The translations under genes and the position numbers were made by a program. Positions 1 to 6,222 of a stretch of 64,000 bases of DNA are shown one piece after another; within the stretch, counting starts at the first letter, position 1, and each line of letters begins with the position of its first letter. Source of the DNA: Fibrobacter sp. UWP2 (GTDB taxonomy: Bacteria > Fibrobacterota > Fibrobacteria > Fibrobacterales > Fibrobacteraceae). The stretch covers positions 1 to 64,000 of the forward strand of contig NZ_FQYM01000017.1 of assembly GCF_900141705.1 (NCBI RefSeq). Reading direction: 5' to 3'. The notes under the pieces were generated by a model. It saw nothing but the letters and a program-made list of their open reading frames with translations, searched no databases and was not told where the DNA came from.

Positions 1-61
1 TTGCTTGGTGTTTTTTTGCTGAACCAAATTTACAAGTTGGAGACCACCTTTTTCTTTTTGG

Positions 62-817
62 TTGCAGAAATTTCAACTAACTTTGGGGCATCTTCTGTGG
101 CGCACCTACCAGACCGAAATCAACGCCACTGAAGAAGTCACCACCGAAGACGACAAGATGAAGGGCGAAATCGACCAGGACTTCTGGGATTACGGTGGAG
201 TCGTCACCTTGTCTAACAGCCCGTCCGCCAAGACGGTGTTCTGGGCTGCCGGTGTCGCTGCCATTCGTCATTCGAACTACACCGAAGTAAAGGTCAATGG
301 AACCAAGACCAAAGTCACTGGCAACGCCGCCAACATTTCCATCACGCCGATGTTCAACATCGGTCTCCCGATTCTTTCCACGACCAACGCCCGCGTGTTG
401 CTGGGCGCCAACACCGAAATCCCGCTCGTCTTCTATGACGAAATCAAGGACGAAAACCGCAAGAACAAGGACAACTACCACATCATTGGTGTCGAAACCA
501 CACCGAACATCTTGGCAGAACTCGCCCTCGGCAAATGCTGGATGGTCTTTGGTGGCGCCGCCTACACTTGGGACGTGTTTGACATGGAACAGGACGAATA
601 CGTCGCCAACTATGACGATGCCGATACCAAGCACAAGCAGAGCTTCACCAAGATTGAATCCGTCACTGGGATGACCACCGTGAACGCCGGCGCCCGTTTC
701 CAGTACAGCAACTTCGCCTTGGAAGCCTCCATCCAGAACAGTTTCTACAACAATCCGCTCGAAGGATTCAACGGAACCAACTTCCTCGCTCAAGTGGGCG
801 GCTTCATCTATTTCTAA
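62..817 (+). CDS. Outer-membrane beta-barrel-like protein, 5' end missing or damaged
   Basis: The frame is open from base 23 to 817. The first usable start is a TTG at 62 with no ribosome binding site, and no signal peptide can be seen. The rest reads like an outer-membrane barrel: alternating polar and hydrophobic strands, an acidic loop near residues 20-40, and a C-terminal strand ending in Phe (GGFIYF). The first ~60 bases are T-rich and do not look like coding sequence, and a TGA at 20-22 closes the frame. The real N-terminus is therefore lost by truncation, frameshift or a contig edge. The lipoprotein gene 17 bp downstream may be co-transcribed. The specific function is unknown. Confidence 0.6.
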   Translation: MQKFQLTLGHLLWRTYQTEINATEEVTTEDDKMKGEIDQDFWDYGGVVTLSNSPSAKTVFWAAGVAAIRHSNYTEVKVNGTKTKVTGNAANISITPMFNIGLPILSTTNARVLLGANTEIPLVFYDEIKDENRKNKDNYHIIGVETTPNILAELALGKCWMVFGGAAYTWDVFDMEQDEYVANYDDADTKHKQSFTKIESVTGMTTVNAGARFQYSNFALEASIQNSFYNNPLEGFNGTNFLAQVGGFIYF

Positions 818-833
818 CACAGGAGTATAAAAC

Positions 834-1148
834 ATGAAAAAGATTTTCTCTATTCTTTTTGCAACGGCGCTGGTTAGCGCTGTGGTTGGCTGCTCCGGTG
901 AAAAGGACAGCACCATTAGCGGTCCTCGTATGTCGGACCGTCTTAACCCGGAAGATTTGGAAGACATCGCTAAAGGTTCTTCTACCACGCAGCCGACGAC
1001 TCCTTCCTCACAGGAAGAAGACGAAGTCATCGCCGAATACTGCAATAATTTTACCGAACTCGAACGCGATGGCAACGAAACGGAGTACTATTGCCTGGAT
1101 AACTCAGAATTCTACCTCTGCACCCAGACTTCGTGCACCAAAGAATAA
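834..1148 (+). CDS. Small lipoprotein, function unknown
   Basis: This 104-residue protein has a clear lipoprotein signal peptide: a KK start, a hydrophobic stretch, then VVGC with lipidation at Cys20. A good ribosome binding site (AGGAG) lies about 8 bases before the ATG. The mature part is acidic and Ser/Thr-rich. Its last ~35 residues carry four cysteines (YCNNF, YYCLDN, YLCTQTSC), suggesting two disulfides in the periplasm or on the surface. It follows the truncated barrel gene by 17 bp and is ended by a strong hairpin terminator. I do not recognise the family. Confidence 0.75.
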   Translation: MKKIFSILFATALVSAVVGCSGEKDSTISGPRMSDRLNPEDLEDIAKGSSTTQPTTPSSQEEDEVIAEYCNNFTELERDGNETEYYCLDNSEFYLCTQTSCTKE

Positions 1149-1170
1149 TAAGCGAAAGTTCTCTTAAAGC

Positions 1171-1207
1171 AAAAAGCCCTGGTCTTGGACCGGGGCTTTT
1201 TCTTTTT
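1171..1207 (+). terminator. Rho-independent terminator
   Basis: A GC-rich stem (AAGCCCTGGTC / GACCGGGGCTT) with a three-base loop is followed by a T-run. It ends the transcript of the lipoprotein at 834-1148. The A-run on the 5' side means it could also stop minus-strand transcription from the HsdR-N-like gene. Confidence 0.85.
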
Positions 1208-1223
1208 GACGATAATGCCTTTG

Positions 1224-1640
1224 CTACTGAAATTGCGGTAGCGAATCAATTTTAGTGAAACGCCTAGTTTCGGGATTAATGACAAAGTAACGAACAGTGT
1301 CGCCGAGGGCGAGCATCACGTAATTCGGCGTGATGACCTTGAGATACTTGTTAAGCTGCACCTGCAAAGCCTCCCAGGTGTACTCGCCGGGAGCCTTGCA
1401 CTCCACCAGGAGCCACGGGAGGTCCATAGTAGCGCCCGTACGAAAACCGTGCACCAAAATATCCACGCGATCGTCCGTTTTGGGGTCGATCGTCGAGAGC
1501 GGGAACTCTACCGCAATCAAATGCTCCGGCACCTTCACCTCGTGGAGCAAATAGCGGACTGTCGCCTGACGCACGCGTTCTTCGGGCGTGTTAGGGACTT
1601 CTTTTTTGCGAATCGGGTCGTATATCGTTCCGTGGGTCAT
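1224..1640 (-). CDS. Orphan type I restriction HsdR N-terminal-like nuclease domain protein
   Basis: This 138-residue protein resembles stand-alone HsdR_N domain proteins. It has a PD-(D/E)xK nuclease signature: an upstream Glu (AVEFPL), then DDRVDILVHG, then LLVECKAP, giving the D...ExK core. It begins with the arginine-rich helix typical of the family (PEERVRQATVRYLL). No specificity, methylase or translocase subunits lie nearby, so it is not a working type I system. Similar single-domain proteins are common in Bacteroidota and Fibrobacterota and have no established role. The ATG start gives a normal length, and the gene converges on the lipoprotein terminator. Confidence 0.75.
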   Translation of the reverse strand: MTHGTIYDPIRKKEVPNTPEERVRQATVRYLLHEVKVPEHLIAVEFPLSTIDPKTDDRVDILVHGFRTGATMDLPWLLVECKAPGEYTWEALQVQLNKYLKVITPNYVMLALGDTVRYFVINPETRRFTKIDSLPQFQ

Positions 1641-1670
1641 AACCTGAATATAGAAATCTTAATGGCAAAC

Positions 1671-1699
1671 TTGACAACCTCCACACTTGGAACTATATT
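1671..1699 (+). promoter_or_regulatory. Consensus sigma-70-type promoter of the candidate small RNA
   Basis: TTGACA at 1671-1676 and TATATT at 1694-1699 are separated by exactly 17 bp. It is one of the two closest matches to consensus in the window and fires away from the divergent HsdR-N-like gene. The predicted start falls at about 1705-1707. Confidence 0.8.
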
Positions 1700-1705
1700 T
1701 CGGGA

Positions 1706-1873
1706 CATGAACAAATTCTTTGGACAGAACACCGCAGCAGCGGCAAAGGCAGCAAGCCCGGCAGCAGCCCGAGCTATTGTGGGGCTGTCCAGAGAAACCG
1801 AAGTCTGCAAGGCATAGCGCTAAAATCCAGACCAAAAGTTTCAAGGGCAGCCCCGTAAAAGGCTGCTTTTTTT
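1706..1873 (+). ncRNA. Candidate structured small RNA (~168 nt)
   Basis: The unit runs from the promoter at 1671-1699 to an intrinsic terminator at 1847-1873. An 11-bp long-range stem (1717-1727 with 1785-1795, one G-U pair) encloses a GC-rich, repeat-like interior. A second stem pairs GTCTG 1803-1807 with CAGAC 1828-1832, and the terminator stem follows. An alternative reading is a leaderless 36-codon ORF at 1707-1817 (MNKFFGQ..., alanine-rich). The self-complementarity and lack of protein features favour RNA. It does not match the hallmarks of tmRNA, RNase P RNA or SRP RNA that I can check by eye. The minus-strand Cys-rich reading of the same DNA looks like a shadow. Confidence 0.55.
1847..1873 (+). 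terminator. Terminator of the candidate small RNA
   Basis: GCAGCC at 1847-1852 pairs with GGCTGC at 1861-1866 across an 8-base loop, followed by seven T residues. Confidence 0.8.
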
Positions 1874-1922
1874 ATTTACCCCAATTTTAACCACTAACCA
1901 CAAGGATCGGAAATTCTTACCT

Positions 1923-1956
1923 AGATCCTTCGCCCTTTACAGGGCTCAGGATGACA
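1923..1956 (+). repeat. Intergenic palindromic repeat, copy 1
   Basis: The sequence has AGATCCTTCG, a variable hairpin (CCCTTTACAGGG), then CTCAGGATGACA. The ends GATCCT and AGGATG are near-complementary. Related copies lie at 6254-6284 (diverged) and inside tilS at 47191-47219 and 47695-47733. It sits between the small RNA and the aminotransferase gene. Confidence 0.7.
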
Positions 1957-2070
1957 CTGAGTTGAAAATCAAGGCTCTGGATGGCATTGAAGCAACATTA
2001 CAGGATGATTATTATTCTATAATTACGCAGTAAAATTTGAGAATTTTCGATACCTATACAGGAGCATAAA

Positions 2071-3372
2071 ATGCGCAGAAGACTTTTGAGCGAAGGTGCC
2101 AAGGAACTCTCTTACGAAATCCGCGAGATCGTGAAGAAGGCAAACCAGCTCAAGGCACTCGGCCTCCCCATCCACTGGGAAAACATCGGCGACCCCATCG
2201 AAAAGAAGTGCCAGATTCCCGACTGGATCAAGGACATCGTGGTGGACCTCGTCAAGACGAACCGCAGCTACGGCTACTGCCCCTCCAAGGGCATGCTCGA
2301 AACCCGCGAATTCCTGGTAAAAGAGAACAACAAGCTCGGCGGTGCACAGATCAACGTCGATGACATCCTGTTCTTCAACGGCCTCGGTGACGCCATCGCC
2401 ACCATCTACGGACTGCTCTCGATGAACACCCGCATCATCGGACCTGCCCCGGCCTACTCCACCCATAGTTCCGCCGAAGCGGCACATGCCCACACGGCCC
2501 CCATCACCTACAGCCTCCAGCCCGAAAACCACTGGTACCCGGACCTGGAAGAACTCGAGAACAAGGTGAAGTACAACCCGAGCATCGCGGGCATCCTGAT
2601 TTTGAACCCGGACAACCCGACCGGCATGGTCTACCCGCTCGACATCCTCAAGAAGATTGTGGATATCGCGAAGCGCTACAACCTGTTCATCATCTGCGAC
2701 GAAATCTACAACAAGATTACGTACAATGGCGCCCACGCCTACGCCCTGGCCGAATACATCGGCGACGTTCCGGGCATCGCGCTCAAGGGCATTTCGAAGG
2801 AATACCCGTGGCCGGGCGCTCGTTGCGGCTGGGCCGAATACTACAACCGCGACAAGGACGAACAGTTCGACGCCTTCTGCCGCGCCATCGACAACGCGAA
2901 GATGGTGGAAGTCTGCTCGACCACGCTCCCGCAGATGACCATTCCGCGTGTGCTGGGCGATCCGCGCTTTATCGAGCACCGCACCGCACTGAACGAGAAG
3001 ATTGGCCGCCGCAGCGCCATCATCAACGAAATCCTTTCCGACATTCCGGAACTGTACTTCAACCCGACCTACGGCGCGTTCTACAACACCATCATCTTCC
3101 GCGAAGGAACCTTGAACAGCCACCAGAGCTTGAAGATTGACAACCCGATCATCAAGAAGAAAGTGGAGGAATGGTGCAGCAAGACCACGAACCTGGACTA
3201 CCGCTTCGTGTACTACCTGCTGGGCGCGAAGGGCGTCTGCGTGGTTCCGAGTACCAGCTTCTGCACTGACTTGAAGGGCTTCCGCGTGACGCTCCTCGAA
3301 GAGGATGAAGACGAACTGCGCAGCGTGTTCACCACGATCCACGACGCCATCGTGGAATACCTGCATAGTTAA
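2071..3372 (+). CDS. Class I/II PLP-dependent aminotransferase
   Basis: This 433-residue fold-type I aminotransferase carries the usual landmarks. These are a substrate/cofactor region around YGYCPSKGM, the NPDNPTGMVYPL motif (PLP contact), ICDEIYNKITY, the Schiff-base lysine in KGISKEYPWPGARCGW, and a C-terminal small domain. It probably moves an amino group between an amino acid such as alanine, aspartate or an aromatic residue and 2-oxoglutarate; substrate cannot be fixed from sequence. The start is an ATG preceded by AGGAGC. A TATAAT box at 2018-2023 may be the -10 element. The gene ends 21 bp before potA, so it is probably the first gene of the polyamine-transport operon, which hints at amine or amino-acid metabolism. 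Confidence 0.88.
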   Translation: MRRRLLSEGAKELSYEIREIVKKANQLKALGLPIHWENIGDPIEKKCQIPDWIKDIVVDLVKTNRSYGYCPSKGMLETREFLVKENNKLGGAQINVDDILFFNGLGDAIATIYGLLSMNTRIIGPAPAYSTHSSAEAAHAHTAPITYSLQPENHWYPDLEELENKVKYNPSIAGILILNPDNPTGMVYPLDILKKIVDIAKRYNLFIICDEIYNKITYNGAHAYALAEYIGDVPGIALKGISKEYPWPGARCGWAEYYNRDKDEQFDAFCRAIDNAKMVEVCSTTLPQMTIPRVLGDPRFIEHRTALNEKIGRRSAIINEILSDIPELYFNPTYGAFYNTIIFREGTLNSHQSLKIDNPIIKKKVEEWCSKTTNLDYRFVYYLLGAKGVCVVPSTSFCTDLKGFRVTLLEEDEDELRSVFTTIHDAIVEYLHS

Positions 3373-3393
3373 GGGACTTTGCGGGAACGGGAC

Positions 3394-4479
3394 ATGGAAA
3401 GCGCGGACCTCCACATCAAGGGTGTTCAAAAGAGCTTTGGCGACAAGGCAGTTCTAAAGAATATCGACGTCACCATCAAGGACGGCGAGTTCGTGACGCT
3501 CCTCGGCCCTTCGGGCTGCGGAAAGACGACGCTCCTCCGCATTATCGCGGGCTTCGAAAAGGCAGACGCGGGCGCAGTTATCCTTGGCGGCGAGGACATC
3601 TCGAAAAAGTCCCCTGCAAAGCGCGACATCAATACGGTGTTCCAGAGCTACGCGCTGTTCCCGCACCTGAACGTTTTCAACAACATCGCATTCGGCCTCA
3701 AAAGCAAGAAAGTCCCGAAGGACGAAATCGAGCGCCGTGTGAACGCGATGATGGAAGTCGTGAACATCACGGACTTTGCAAACGAGAAACCCAACACGTT
3801 GAGCGGCGGGCAGAAGCAACGAGTGGCGCTCGCCCGTGCCCTCGTGAACGAGCCCGACATTCTGCTTTTGGATGAGCCACTTTCGGCACTCGACGCGAAC
3901 CTCCGCAAAAAGCTACAGACCGAACTCCGCGACGTACAACGTAAGACCGACACCACCTTCATCATGGTGACCCACGACCAAGACGAAGCTATCGCCGTCA
4001 GCGACCGCATTTTTGTGATGTACAAGGGCGAAATTGTGCAGGAAGGCACCCCCGAAGACGTGTACGAGCGTCCGGTGAACCGTTTTGTGGCGACATTCAT
4101 CGGCGAAGCGAATATTTTGGAATGCGAACGCATTTCCAACTCCATAGTCCGCACATGTTTCGGCGATCTCGTTGTGGAACGCGCTCCATCATGGGAAAGC
4201 GTAAGTTCGGCTACCGCAAAGGGCGGCGTCGCCATCCGCATGGAAGACATCCACGTGTGTACGCCGAGCGAGCATTTCGAGAACAACACCTTCCCCGCCA
4301 CTATCTTGGAACGTATCTTCCGCGGCGACTACTGGGAACTGATTGCGCAAATGAAGGACTCAAACGGAAACGCCTGCCGCACGCTCCGCGTAATGACCGA
4401 CCCCGACGAAATCTACAACGCAGGGGACCAGGTGACACTCTACATGGAGCCTCAATATTTGCAAGTGCTGAGTGACTAA
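3394..4479 (+). CDS. potA: Spermidine/putrescine ABC transporter ATPase PotA
   Basis: This cytoplasmic ATPase powers polyamine import with PotB, PotC and PotD. Visible motifs are Walker A GPSGCGKT (Gly38-Thr45), the Q-loop in VFQSYALFPHL, the signature LSGGQKQRVALARAL, Walker B ILLLDEPLSALD and the switch His in VTHDQDEA. A C-terminal TOBE-like domain (about 240-361) is typical of PotA and MalK regulators. I chose the ATG at 3394, although an in-frame TTG lies 15 bases upstream, because the domain starts normally from the ATG. The last base of the TAA stop region overlaps the ATG of potB, implying translational coupling. Confidence 0.93.
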   Translation: MESADLHIKGVQKSFGDKAVLKNIDVTIKDGEFVTLLGPSGCGKTTLLRIIAGFEKADAGAVILGGEDISKKSPAKRDINTVFQSYALFPHLNVFNNIAFGLKSKKVPKDEIERRVNAMMEVVNITDFANEKPNTLSGGQKQRVALARALVNEPDILLLDEPLSALDANLRKKLQTELRDVQRKTDTTFIMVTHDQDEAIAVSDRIFVMYKGEIVQEGTPEDVYERPVNRFVATFIGEANILECERISNSIVRTCFGDLVVERAPSWESVSSATAKGGVAIRMEDIHVCTPSEHFENNTFPATILERIFRGDYWELIAQMKDSNGNACRTLRVMTDPDEIYNAGDQVTLYMEPQYLQVLSD

Positions 4480-5411
4480 TGCGAAAAGCAAACGCAACAA
4501 GCAATCCTCACACTCCCGAGGTTATTGAAGGCAAGCTCACGACCAAGAGCCGCATGCGGAAGTTCGGCCTTTTGCTTACGGGACCGGGCATGCTGTGGCT
4601 TTTGGTGTTCCTGCTCCTCCCCACCGTTTTCCTTTTGGTGATGGCTTTTGCACAGCGCGGTTCCTACGGCACCATCGACTGGACGTTCAGCATCGAGAAC
4701 CTGAAAAAGCTCGTGGGCTTCAGCTCGTTCGGCTGGTCCGCCGACAACCTACTCATCATCTGGCGGAGTTTCAAGATCGCAGTCATCACGACACTCCTCT
4801 GCCTTGCGGTTGGCCTCCCCATGGCCTTCTGGATTGGTGCCCACAGCAAAAAGACGAGCGCCCTGTTGCTTGCCCTCGTGATGGTTCCGAGCTGCACGAA
4901 CCTCGTCATCCGTACTTACGCGTGGATGATTTTCCTTGGTGCGCAGATGCCGCCCACGTGGCTAGCCCGCGCGCTCGGCCTTATCGGCGAAATGGAATCG
5001 CTTTACCCCGGCACCTTCGCGGTCTACATTGGCATGGTGAGTTGCATGCTCCCCTTCGCGGTACTCCCGCTCTACACGAGCGTCGAACGGCTTGACTGGG
5101 GAATCGTCGAGGCGGCACGAGACCTTTACGCAGGGCCCGTTCGCGTATTCTACCACGGAATCTTATCGCAGATGATGCCCGGCATCGTGGCGAGTGTCGT
5201 CCTTACGCTTGTGCCGACACTCGGCATGTACGTGGTGAGCGACCTCCTCGGCGGCGCAAAGTTCATCCTCATCGGGAACCTAATACAGCAGCAGTTCTTT
5301 GGGACGGCGCTCGACTGGCCGTTCGGTGCAATGCTCGGCATTGTCCTCATCATCTCAAGCGTTTTGAGCCTCATTGTGTTCCAGAAGACGGGAGGGAAGT
5401 CCTTTGTCTAA
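4479..5411 (+). CDS. potB: Polyamine ABC transporter permease PotB
   Basis: This 310-residue inner-membrane protein has about six hydrophobic helices. The EAA-type loop that docks on the ATPase is visible as VEAARDLYAGPVRVFYHGIL near residues 205-225. Order and size match PotB. It starts one base before the end of potA and its 3' end overlaps potC. The N-terminus is a charged 35-residue cytoplasmic stretch before the first helix (LLLTGPGMLWLLVFLLLP). Confidence 0.93.
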   Translation: MRKANATSNPHTPEVIEGKLTTKSRMRKFGLLLTGPGMLWLLVFLLLPTVFLLVMAFAQRGSYGTIDWTFSIENLKKLVGFSSFGWSADNLLIIWRSFKIAVITTLLCLAVGLPMAFWIGAHSKKTSALLLALVMVPSCTNLVIRTYAWMIFLGAQMPPTWLARALGLIGEMESLYPGTFAVYIGMVSCMLPFAVLPLYTSVERLDWGIVEAARDLYAGPVRVFYHGILSQMMPGIVASVVLTLVPTLGMYVVSDLLGGAKFILIGNLIQQQFFGTALDWPFGAMLGIVLIISSVLSLIVFQKTGGKSFV

Positions 5412-6222
5412 GCGCCTCCCGCTATACGCCCGCATTTTAGCCTACATCGGCATGCTGCTTTTGTACATGCCGCTCTTGGTGGTGCTCATCCAGAGTTTCA
5501 ACGCGAACAAACACGGCCAGACCTGGGGCGGCTTCACCTTCGACTGGTACGCAAAGCTCTTTGACAACGCACTCGTGCAGTCGGCGACGGTCAACACGCT
5601 CATCCTCGCCATCGTGAGTACCGTCATCTCGACCGCCCTCGGCACGCTCCTCGCCATCGGCATCCACCGCACGCCCTGGGGCAAAAAAATGCAGGGCCTC
5701 TACGACATGAGCATCAACGTCCCCGTGGTGACGCCCGACATCTTGATGGCAATCGCGCTCGTGAGCGTATTCGCCCTCTTCAGGAGCTTCACCCCGCTAT
5801 TCGACCCGGGCATGCTTACCCTCATCATCGCCCACGTGACCTTTGAAATCAGCTTTGTGGTGCTCGTGGTGCAGAGCCGTCTCGTCTCCATCGGCAAAGA
5901 CCAGATCGAGGCCGCCCGCGACCTTTACGCAAGCACCGCCGGTGCCTGGTTCCGCGTGATTCTCCCGCAGCTCTCCACGGCTATCGTCTCGGGGGCGCTC
6001 CTCGCCTTCACGCTCTCGCTCGACGACTTCATCATCAGCTTCTTTGTGAGCGGGCCCAAGTCCACGACCCTCCCGCTCTACATATACGGCTCGCTCAAGC
6101 GAGGGATTTCCCCGCAAATACATGCCCTCTCTACGCTGATTTTCGCCATCACGCTGTTTGCGATGCTCATTTTCGCCCTCAAAGGATCGTTCAAGAAGAA
6201 ACGCAAAAAAACTTCTTGTTAG
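5404..6222 (+). CDS. potC: Polyamine ABC transporter permease PotC
   Basis: This second permease subunit has about 272 residues and six predicted helices. Its EAA loop reads IEAARDLYASTAGAWFRVILP, followed by the conserved SLDDFIISFF stretch found in PotC. I place the start at TTG 5404 (LSKRLPLYARIL), which has a strong ribosome binding site (GGAGGGAAG) about 5 bases upstream and overlaps the potB stop by 8 bp. The in-frame ATG further upstream lies deep in potB and is less likely. The C-terminus is a lysine-rich tail. Confidence 0.92.
   Translation: MSKRLPLYARILAYIGMLLLYMPLLVVLIQSFNANKHGQTWGGFTFDWYAKLFDNALVQSATVNTLILAIVSTVISTALGTLLAIGIHRTPWGKKMQGLYDMSINVPVVTPDILMAIALVSVFALFRSFTPLFDPGMLTLIIAHVTFEISFVVLVVQSRLVSIGKDQIEAARDLYASTAGAWFRVILPQLSTAIVSGALLAFTLSLDDFIISFFVSGPKSTTLPLYIYGSLKRGISPQIHALSTLIFAITLFAMLIFALKGSFKKKRKKTSC

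Follow-up and report, generated by a model that had tools for sequence, protein, structure and literature searches.

The window, the 64,000-nucleotide stretch of Fibrobacter sp. UWP2 DNA analyzed here, carries near its start a promoter, a short open reading frame (ORF), several possible RNA helices and an intrinsic terminator, all on the forward strand ahead of an aminotransferase gene. Fibrobacter is a rumen bacterium. The distal promoter, P1 (1671-1699, + strand), is close to the sigma-70 consensus and is made up of TTGACA (1671-1676), a 17-nt spacer and TATATT (1694-1699). It agrees with 11 of 12 consensus positions and is the top promoter-like site within window positions 1-6000; its hexamers are recognizable in relatives and weaker in the second genus that carries the element. 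Seven nucleotides past the -10 hexamer, an ATG (1707-1709) begins a predicted leaderless ORF of 36 codons, MNKFFGQNTAAAAKAASPAAARAIVGLSRETEVCKA, which ends at a TAG stop (1815-1817; whole ORF 1707-1817, + strand). The aminotransferase gene (2071-3372, + strand) follows, with a Shine-Dalgarno sequence, AGGAG, at 2060-2064, and a terminator scan of the + strand between 1873 and 2071 reported no further terminator-like site. Divergently oriented upstream of the leader (1224-1640, - strand) lies a gene whose 138-residue product carries an HsdR N-terminal-like domain (PF13588); it is a frequent but not constant neighbor of the leader in relatives.

The sequence-only reading of this locus had pointed to the promoter, an 11-bp stem, a second stem and the terminator, and all of them are present where it had placed them. 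It had recognized no similarity to tmRNA, RNase P RNA or SRP RNA. No Rfam family matches the element: one tRNA was the only match in the window, nothing credible fell over 1640-2080, and the gathering thresholds of known families (6S, T-box, riboswitches, amino-acid leaders) were not reached. 6S RNA was considered and rejected, as RF00013 gave just a chance-level match elsewhere in the genome. The leader RNA of the window folds 2.7 SD below dinucleotide shuffles.

The downstream gene encodes a class I/II aminotransferase resembling AlaA. It matches PF00155 and exceeds the cut-off of NF005334, a model without a named substrate. Among PDB structures, E. coli AlaA (4cvq, E=1.5e-41) is its best relative, followed by a Pyrococcus transaminase (1xi9). 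E. coli AlaA is a glutamate-pyruvate aminotransferase. The genome yielded no alanine dehydrogenase. Three other aminotransferases of the genome match the alanine aminotransferase model and, because one of them outscores the 2071-3372 product (229.5 versus 182.1 bits), the substrate is something we infer: judged from these similarities, the enzyme probably makes alanine. The Ala richness of the leader offers a further hint as to the substrate.

Closer to the aminotransferase gene, a -10-like TATAAT (2018-2023, + strand) is a possible second promoter. The same site is present in genomes without the leader, which suggests a basal level of expression that would bypass the leader. An 11-12 bp inverted repeat (1908-1919 and 2038-2049) flanks this box. 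Many relatives, including some without the leader (L089-L091), have it at the corresponding position ahead of the aminotransferase, and its arms change together (CGGAAATTCTT/AAGAATTTTCG, CGGAAATTCAC/GTGAATTTTCG, GGAAATTCAAA/TTTGAATTTTC). The repeat may serve as an operator, or form a hairpin confined to transcripts that start further upstream. In the window its two arms have been separated by CTAGATCCTTCGCCCTTTACAGGGCTCAGGATGAC (about 1920-1955), which resembles a dispersed intergenic repeat and also occurs at other Fibrobacter loci.

The element is widespread in its genus. Of 36 other genomes of the genus, 21 gave long matches in a nucleotide search, and four divergent leaders were found upstream of the orthologous aminotransferase in genomes without a nucleotide match. 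With a covariance model, the promoter, ORF and stems were seen to recur in 58 of 80 genus genomes (E down to 1e-48). Restricted to genomes of good quality, the count was 34 of 40, the other six giving no match. The model also found the element in four genomes of a second genus of Fibrobacteraceae, with no hit in the other genera of the class that were searched. The named records picked out by a pattern scan belong to Fibrobacter and are mostly rumen and gut metagenome genomes. There is one copy per genome.

In all 46 loci with readable flanks, spanning two genera, the same AlaA-like aminotransferase is directly downstream of the element; these loci are the window, 21 relatives, the four divergent leaders and 20 further covariance-model matches, with the 28 named contigs of the pattern scan standing outside this individual check. 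The enzyme of the second genus is 76% identical. Upstream genes vary among the loci while the aminotransferase stays. In some genomes the leader is gone, and in G012 (L085) and G026 (L091) the terminator hairpin alone is left upstream of the aminotransferase.

The transcript from P1 can form alternative helices. Strand 1 (UCUUUGGACAG, 1717-1727) pairs with 1785-1795 in an 11-bp helix that includes one G-U pair. Strand 2 (GGGGCUGUCCAGAGA, 1781-1795) can instead pair with strand 3 (GGGCAGCCCC, 1845-1854) through 1781-1790/1845-1854, an option that the sequence-only reading had overlooked. This 2:3 antiterminator encloses inner helices at 1794-1798/1838-1842 and 1803-1807/1828-1832 (overall 1794-1842). 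Strand 3 in turn overlaps 1843-1852, the 5' arm of the intrinsic terminator (3:4, 1843-1852/1861-1870, U-tract 1867-1873). Since strand 2 pairs with strand 1 or with strand 3, and strand 3 is shared with the terminator, these stems are alternatives.

Both sides of this choice are conserved. Among 39 aligned sequences from one genus, 97.9% of cells were paired in helix 1:2, 98.7% in 2:3 and 90.7% in the terminator, compared with 28-65% for slid versions of the helices; the inner helices reached 88.7% and 86.7%. Much of each helix is invariant inside the genus. Covariation among Fibrobacter relatives had been proposed as a check on the stems, and double changes were indeed found. In helix 1:2, G-C became A-U in the divergent clade and C-G became U-A in one other leader; two pairs of helix 2:3 carry double changes, and the inner helix at 1803-1807 also shows compensatory changes. 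Helix 3:4 gave no significant covariation in this one-genus alignment, in which a few divergent leaders are misplaced at that point. In the second genus, strand 2 (CGACUGUCC) and strand 3 (GGACAGUCG) form a perfect nine-pair helix from partly different bases, and the terminator changes along with it. The terminator stands ahead of the gene with a U-tract in the window, the tract being weak in a few relatives (L006, L009, L010).

The reading frame is conserved together with the helices. An ORF of 36 codons opening exactly at the predicted transcription start had been noticed from the sequence and treated as a competitor of the structured RNA. Frame and start are kept in 58 distinct leaders (ATG in 53, GTG in 5), and frame and stems are conserved together, so that the two are better regarded as one device than as rivals. 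Relatives in which the frame is kept and the stems are broken, an outcome that would have counted against a structured RNA, are not what the alignment shows. Insertions and deletions within the ORF are of whole codons. The distance from the ATG to strand 2 takes nine lengths between 75 and 108, all multiples of three, in 50 of the 58 leaders. The remaining eight, from the divergent clade, have a tenth length, 88, with a frame that is open and ends just past strand 2. The non-coding stretch between strand 2 and strand 3 has lengths of 57 to 65 irrespective of frame.

What the ORF encodes is mostly notable for alanine. The leaders contain 9 to 15 Ala each (11 of 36 residues in the window), which amounts to 29.3% of leader residues compared with 8.9% in window genes, and other residues vary while the Ala content stays high. 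Of the leader Ala codons, 64% are GCA, versus 13.7% in window genes. The window leader uses GCA for 8 of its 11 Ala codons (binomial probability 1.4e-5), and the probability of its Ala content is 2e-4; both values are given for the window leader alone, because related leaders are not independent and were not pooled. Since the tRNA-Ala set of the genome comprises the anticodons UGC, GGC and CGC, the leader favors the codons of one isoacceptor, and it appears to lean on those read by tRNA-Ala(UGC). Elf and Ehrenberg argue that the sensitivity of attenuation is governed by codon choice (PMC1183508).

The alanine codons are clustered, in a short upstream ORF whose translation is predicted from its sequence. 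The first cluster (codons 10-13, GCA GCA GCG GCA, 1734-1745) contains the proposed control codons. In 57 of the 58 leaders, 6, 9 or 12 nt separate strand 1 from the first Ala codon, the spacing that a stalled ribosome would need in order to mask strand 1. A second cluster (codons 15-23, 1749-1775) is strongly conserved in the alignment of 39 sequences and is the best-conserved part of the ORF. Stalls modeled there gave mixed folds, largely favoring the terminator. The second cluster may influence timing or form a local hairpin with strand 2.

Leaderless initiation would fit other sites in the genome of Fibrobacter sp. UWP2. The pattern TTGAC-N-TATAWT followed by an ATG at 5-7 nt occurs at seven sites; the reversed pattern, used as a control, gave none. 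An ORF begins at each of the seven, and the set is consistent with leaderless initiation in this bacterium. The other six ORFs are 64 to 377 residues long, and no attenuator leader is among them. Two of the sites (L138 and L143, on contigs C1 and C24) open BrnT- and HicA-like toxin genes, as judged by eye from the translations.

Folding with a modeled ribosome, in which pairs beneath the ribosome were forbidden, links codon position to the choice of helix. A ribosome whose A site holds the first Ala codon hides strand 1 beneath its footprint, and the window leader then folds into 2:3 with all nine footprint sizes; a stall at codon 10 or 11 likewise gave the antiterminator for every footprint tested. 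A ribosome at the stop codon gave 1:2 and the terminator with nine of nine footprint sizes. Across 39 leaders, stalling at the first Ala codon led to the antiterminator in 34 and a ribosome at the stop codon led to the terminator in 36, and 7 of 300 shuffled leaders switched by chance. The five leaders that failed to form the antiterminator are three of the four tested from the divergent clade, L022 and L113; the three that failed to form the terminator are L008, L011 and L021. Codon spacing and footprint folding both place the proposed control codons where a stalled ribosome would mask strand 1.

The ribosome-free RNA behaves differently according to its length. Nascent RNA lacking strand 3 folds into 1:2, which predicts termination when there is no translation. 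The full RNA at equilibrium prefers the 2:3 antiterminator, so termination without a ribosome requires that 1:2 form first, during transcription.

We propose that the aminotransferase mRNA begins with this element as its 5' leader, and that the leader acts as a ribosome-mediated transcription attenuator under the control of charged alanyl-tRNA, a reading to which we give a probability of roughly 0.87. Transcription from P1 would initiate at or beside the ATG, and the 36-codon ORF would be translated as a leaderless message while transcription proceeds. When alanyl-tRNA is plentiful, the ribosome would run through the Ala codons to the stop. With a ribosome at the stop, or with none loaded, 1:2 would pair, 3:4 would form and transcription would terminate at about 1873. 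When alanyl-tRNA is short, the ribosome would stall at the first Ala codons (1734-1739) and cover strand 1; 2:3 would then pair, the terminator would be blocked and polymerase would read into the aminotransferase gene. The conserved parts, the geometry, the alternative helices and the synteny come from the sequence, and the switch of fold is computed; leaderless translation, alanine as the signal and alanine as the product are what we infer.

The main alternatives keep some of this anatomy and discard the rest. The same attenuator could be worked by a nascent arrest peptide that stops the ribosome on sensing a ligand or antibiotic, instead of by uncharged alanyl-tRNA. In its favor, a stretch of the form AA(S/G)xAxARA is kept across clades, and nearly every leader inspected contains an Ala-Arg-Ala with a CGA codon. 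However, the codons beside strand 1 encode Ala in some leaders and other residues in others, with Ala content remaining high, such a peptide has no need of the strong GCA bias, and the downstream gene is AlaA-like. We consider an arrest peptide distinctly unlikely. A ligand-binding riboswitch independent of translation would account for alternative helices ahead of a metabolic gene, but it would make the conserved frame, the start codon and the control-codon geometry superfluous, and no Rfam family matches; this idea is barely credible.

Two further explanations detach the element from its neighbor. The sequence-only reading favored a structured small RNA of about 168 nt, and part of that description stands: the strong promoter and the terminator would define a structured transcript of about 165 nt, and this terminated product would exist as a small RNA even if the element is an attenuator. 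Terminated attenuator RNAs can also act in trans, as does rnTrpL of Sinorhizobium meliloti (PMC7298713). As a primary function, a stand-alone trans-acting or dual-function small RNA with an incidental neighbor was set aside as very unlikely, given one gene downstream in 46 of 46 loci despite changing upstream genes, mutually exclusive helices tuned to codon positions, and the anatomy of a peptide-leader attenuator. By analogy with S. meliloti trpL, a leaderless attenuator specific for alanine, its GCA codons tuning it to a single tRNA-Ala isoacceptor, might release an RNA or an Ala-rich peptide that also acts in trans as a signal of alanine status; this combination is speculative and, in our view, unlikely. 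Finally, the ORF could encode a small functional leaderless protein, such as a type I toxin, on an mRNA structured by chance. The conserved frame would suit such a protein, and some leaderless promoters of the genome do precede toxin-antitoxin-like genes. Its C-terminus is variable, with an early end in several leaders, however, and residues vary where the RNA is unpaired; three alternative helices and the aminotransferase synteny would also be left unexplained, making a functional protein extremely unlikely.

The attenuator reading has several implications. Attenuators are best known for a few amino acids (trp, his, leu, thr, phe, ilv; PMC1183508), and the Fibrobacter leader adds a well-conserved candidate for alanine. 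Its leaderless ORF fits the other leaderless promoters of the same genome. GCA is rare in window genes and dominant in the leader, which makes the element a test case for the tuning of attenuation by codon choice, and it would offer Fibrobacter an alanine-responsive genetic part. It also counsels caution, as small RNAs proposed in understudied phyla from a strong promoter and a terminator may be attenuator leaders.

The mechanism class is classical. Like the ribosome-mediated attenuators of the trp, his, leu, thr, pheA and ilv leaders (PMC1183508), the Fibrobacter leader combines a short ORF enriched in codons for one amino acid, helices 1:2, 2:3 and 3:4, an intrinsic terminator and a gene of biosynthetic type. 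It differs from them in its proposed alanine control, its leaderless ORF and its occurrence in Fibrobacterota, and no sequence similarity to them was detected. In the open-access literature we found no alanine-codon attenuator ahead of an aminotransferase and no leader-peptide attenuator in Fibrobacter or its phylum; as far as this literature goes, an alanine-type aminotransferase under alanine control seems not to have been described in Fibrobacterota.

The closest parallels come from other phyla. In S. meliloti trpL, the 5' end of the RNA is the ATG of the leader ORF, as predicted in Fibrobacter, and attenuation yields a small RNA; that system differs in responding to tryptophan, in its 14-residue peptide, in its target trpE(G) and in products shown to act in trans (PMC7298713). 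The mycobacterial polycysteine upstream ORFs (uORFs), which act as attenuators in the accounts of Canestrari 2020 given in PMC9031893 and PMC13236596, are likewise leaderless with runs of one codon type. As described there, they respond to cysteine, are reviewed as acting on downstream translation and belong to a different phylum. In mycobacteria, attenuation at whiB7 reportedly responds to alanine starvation (Poulton 2024, as cited in PMC13236596) and would share with the Fibrobacter leader a uORF-dependent transcription attenuation tied to that signal; its target, in that account, is a transcription factor induced by ribosome stalling, with no direct control of an aminotransferase. The M. 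tuberculosis ilvB1 leader (PMC13236596) has four regulatory codons and a terminator/antiterminator switch like those proposed here. Its switch was shown with reporters, and its codons (LVVI) respond to branched-chain amino acids, in contrast to the alanine codons of Fibrobacter.
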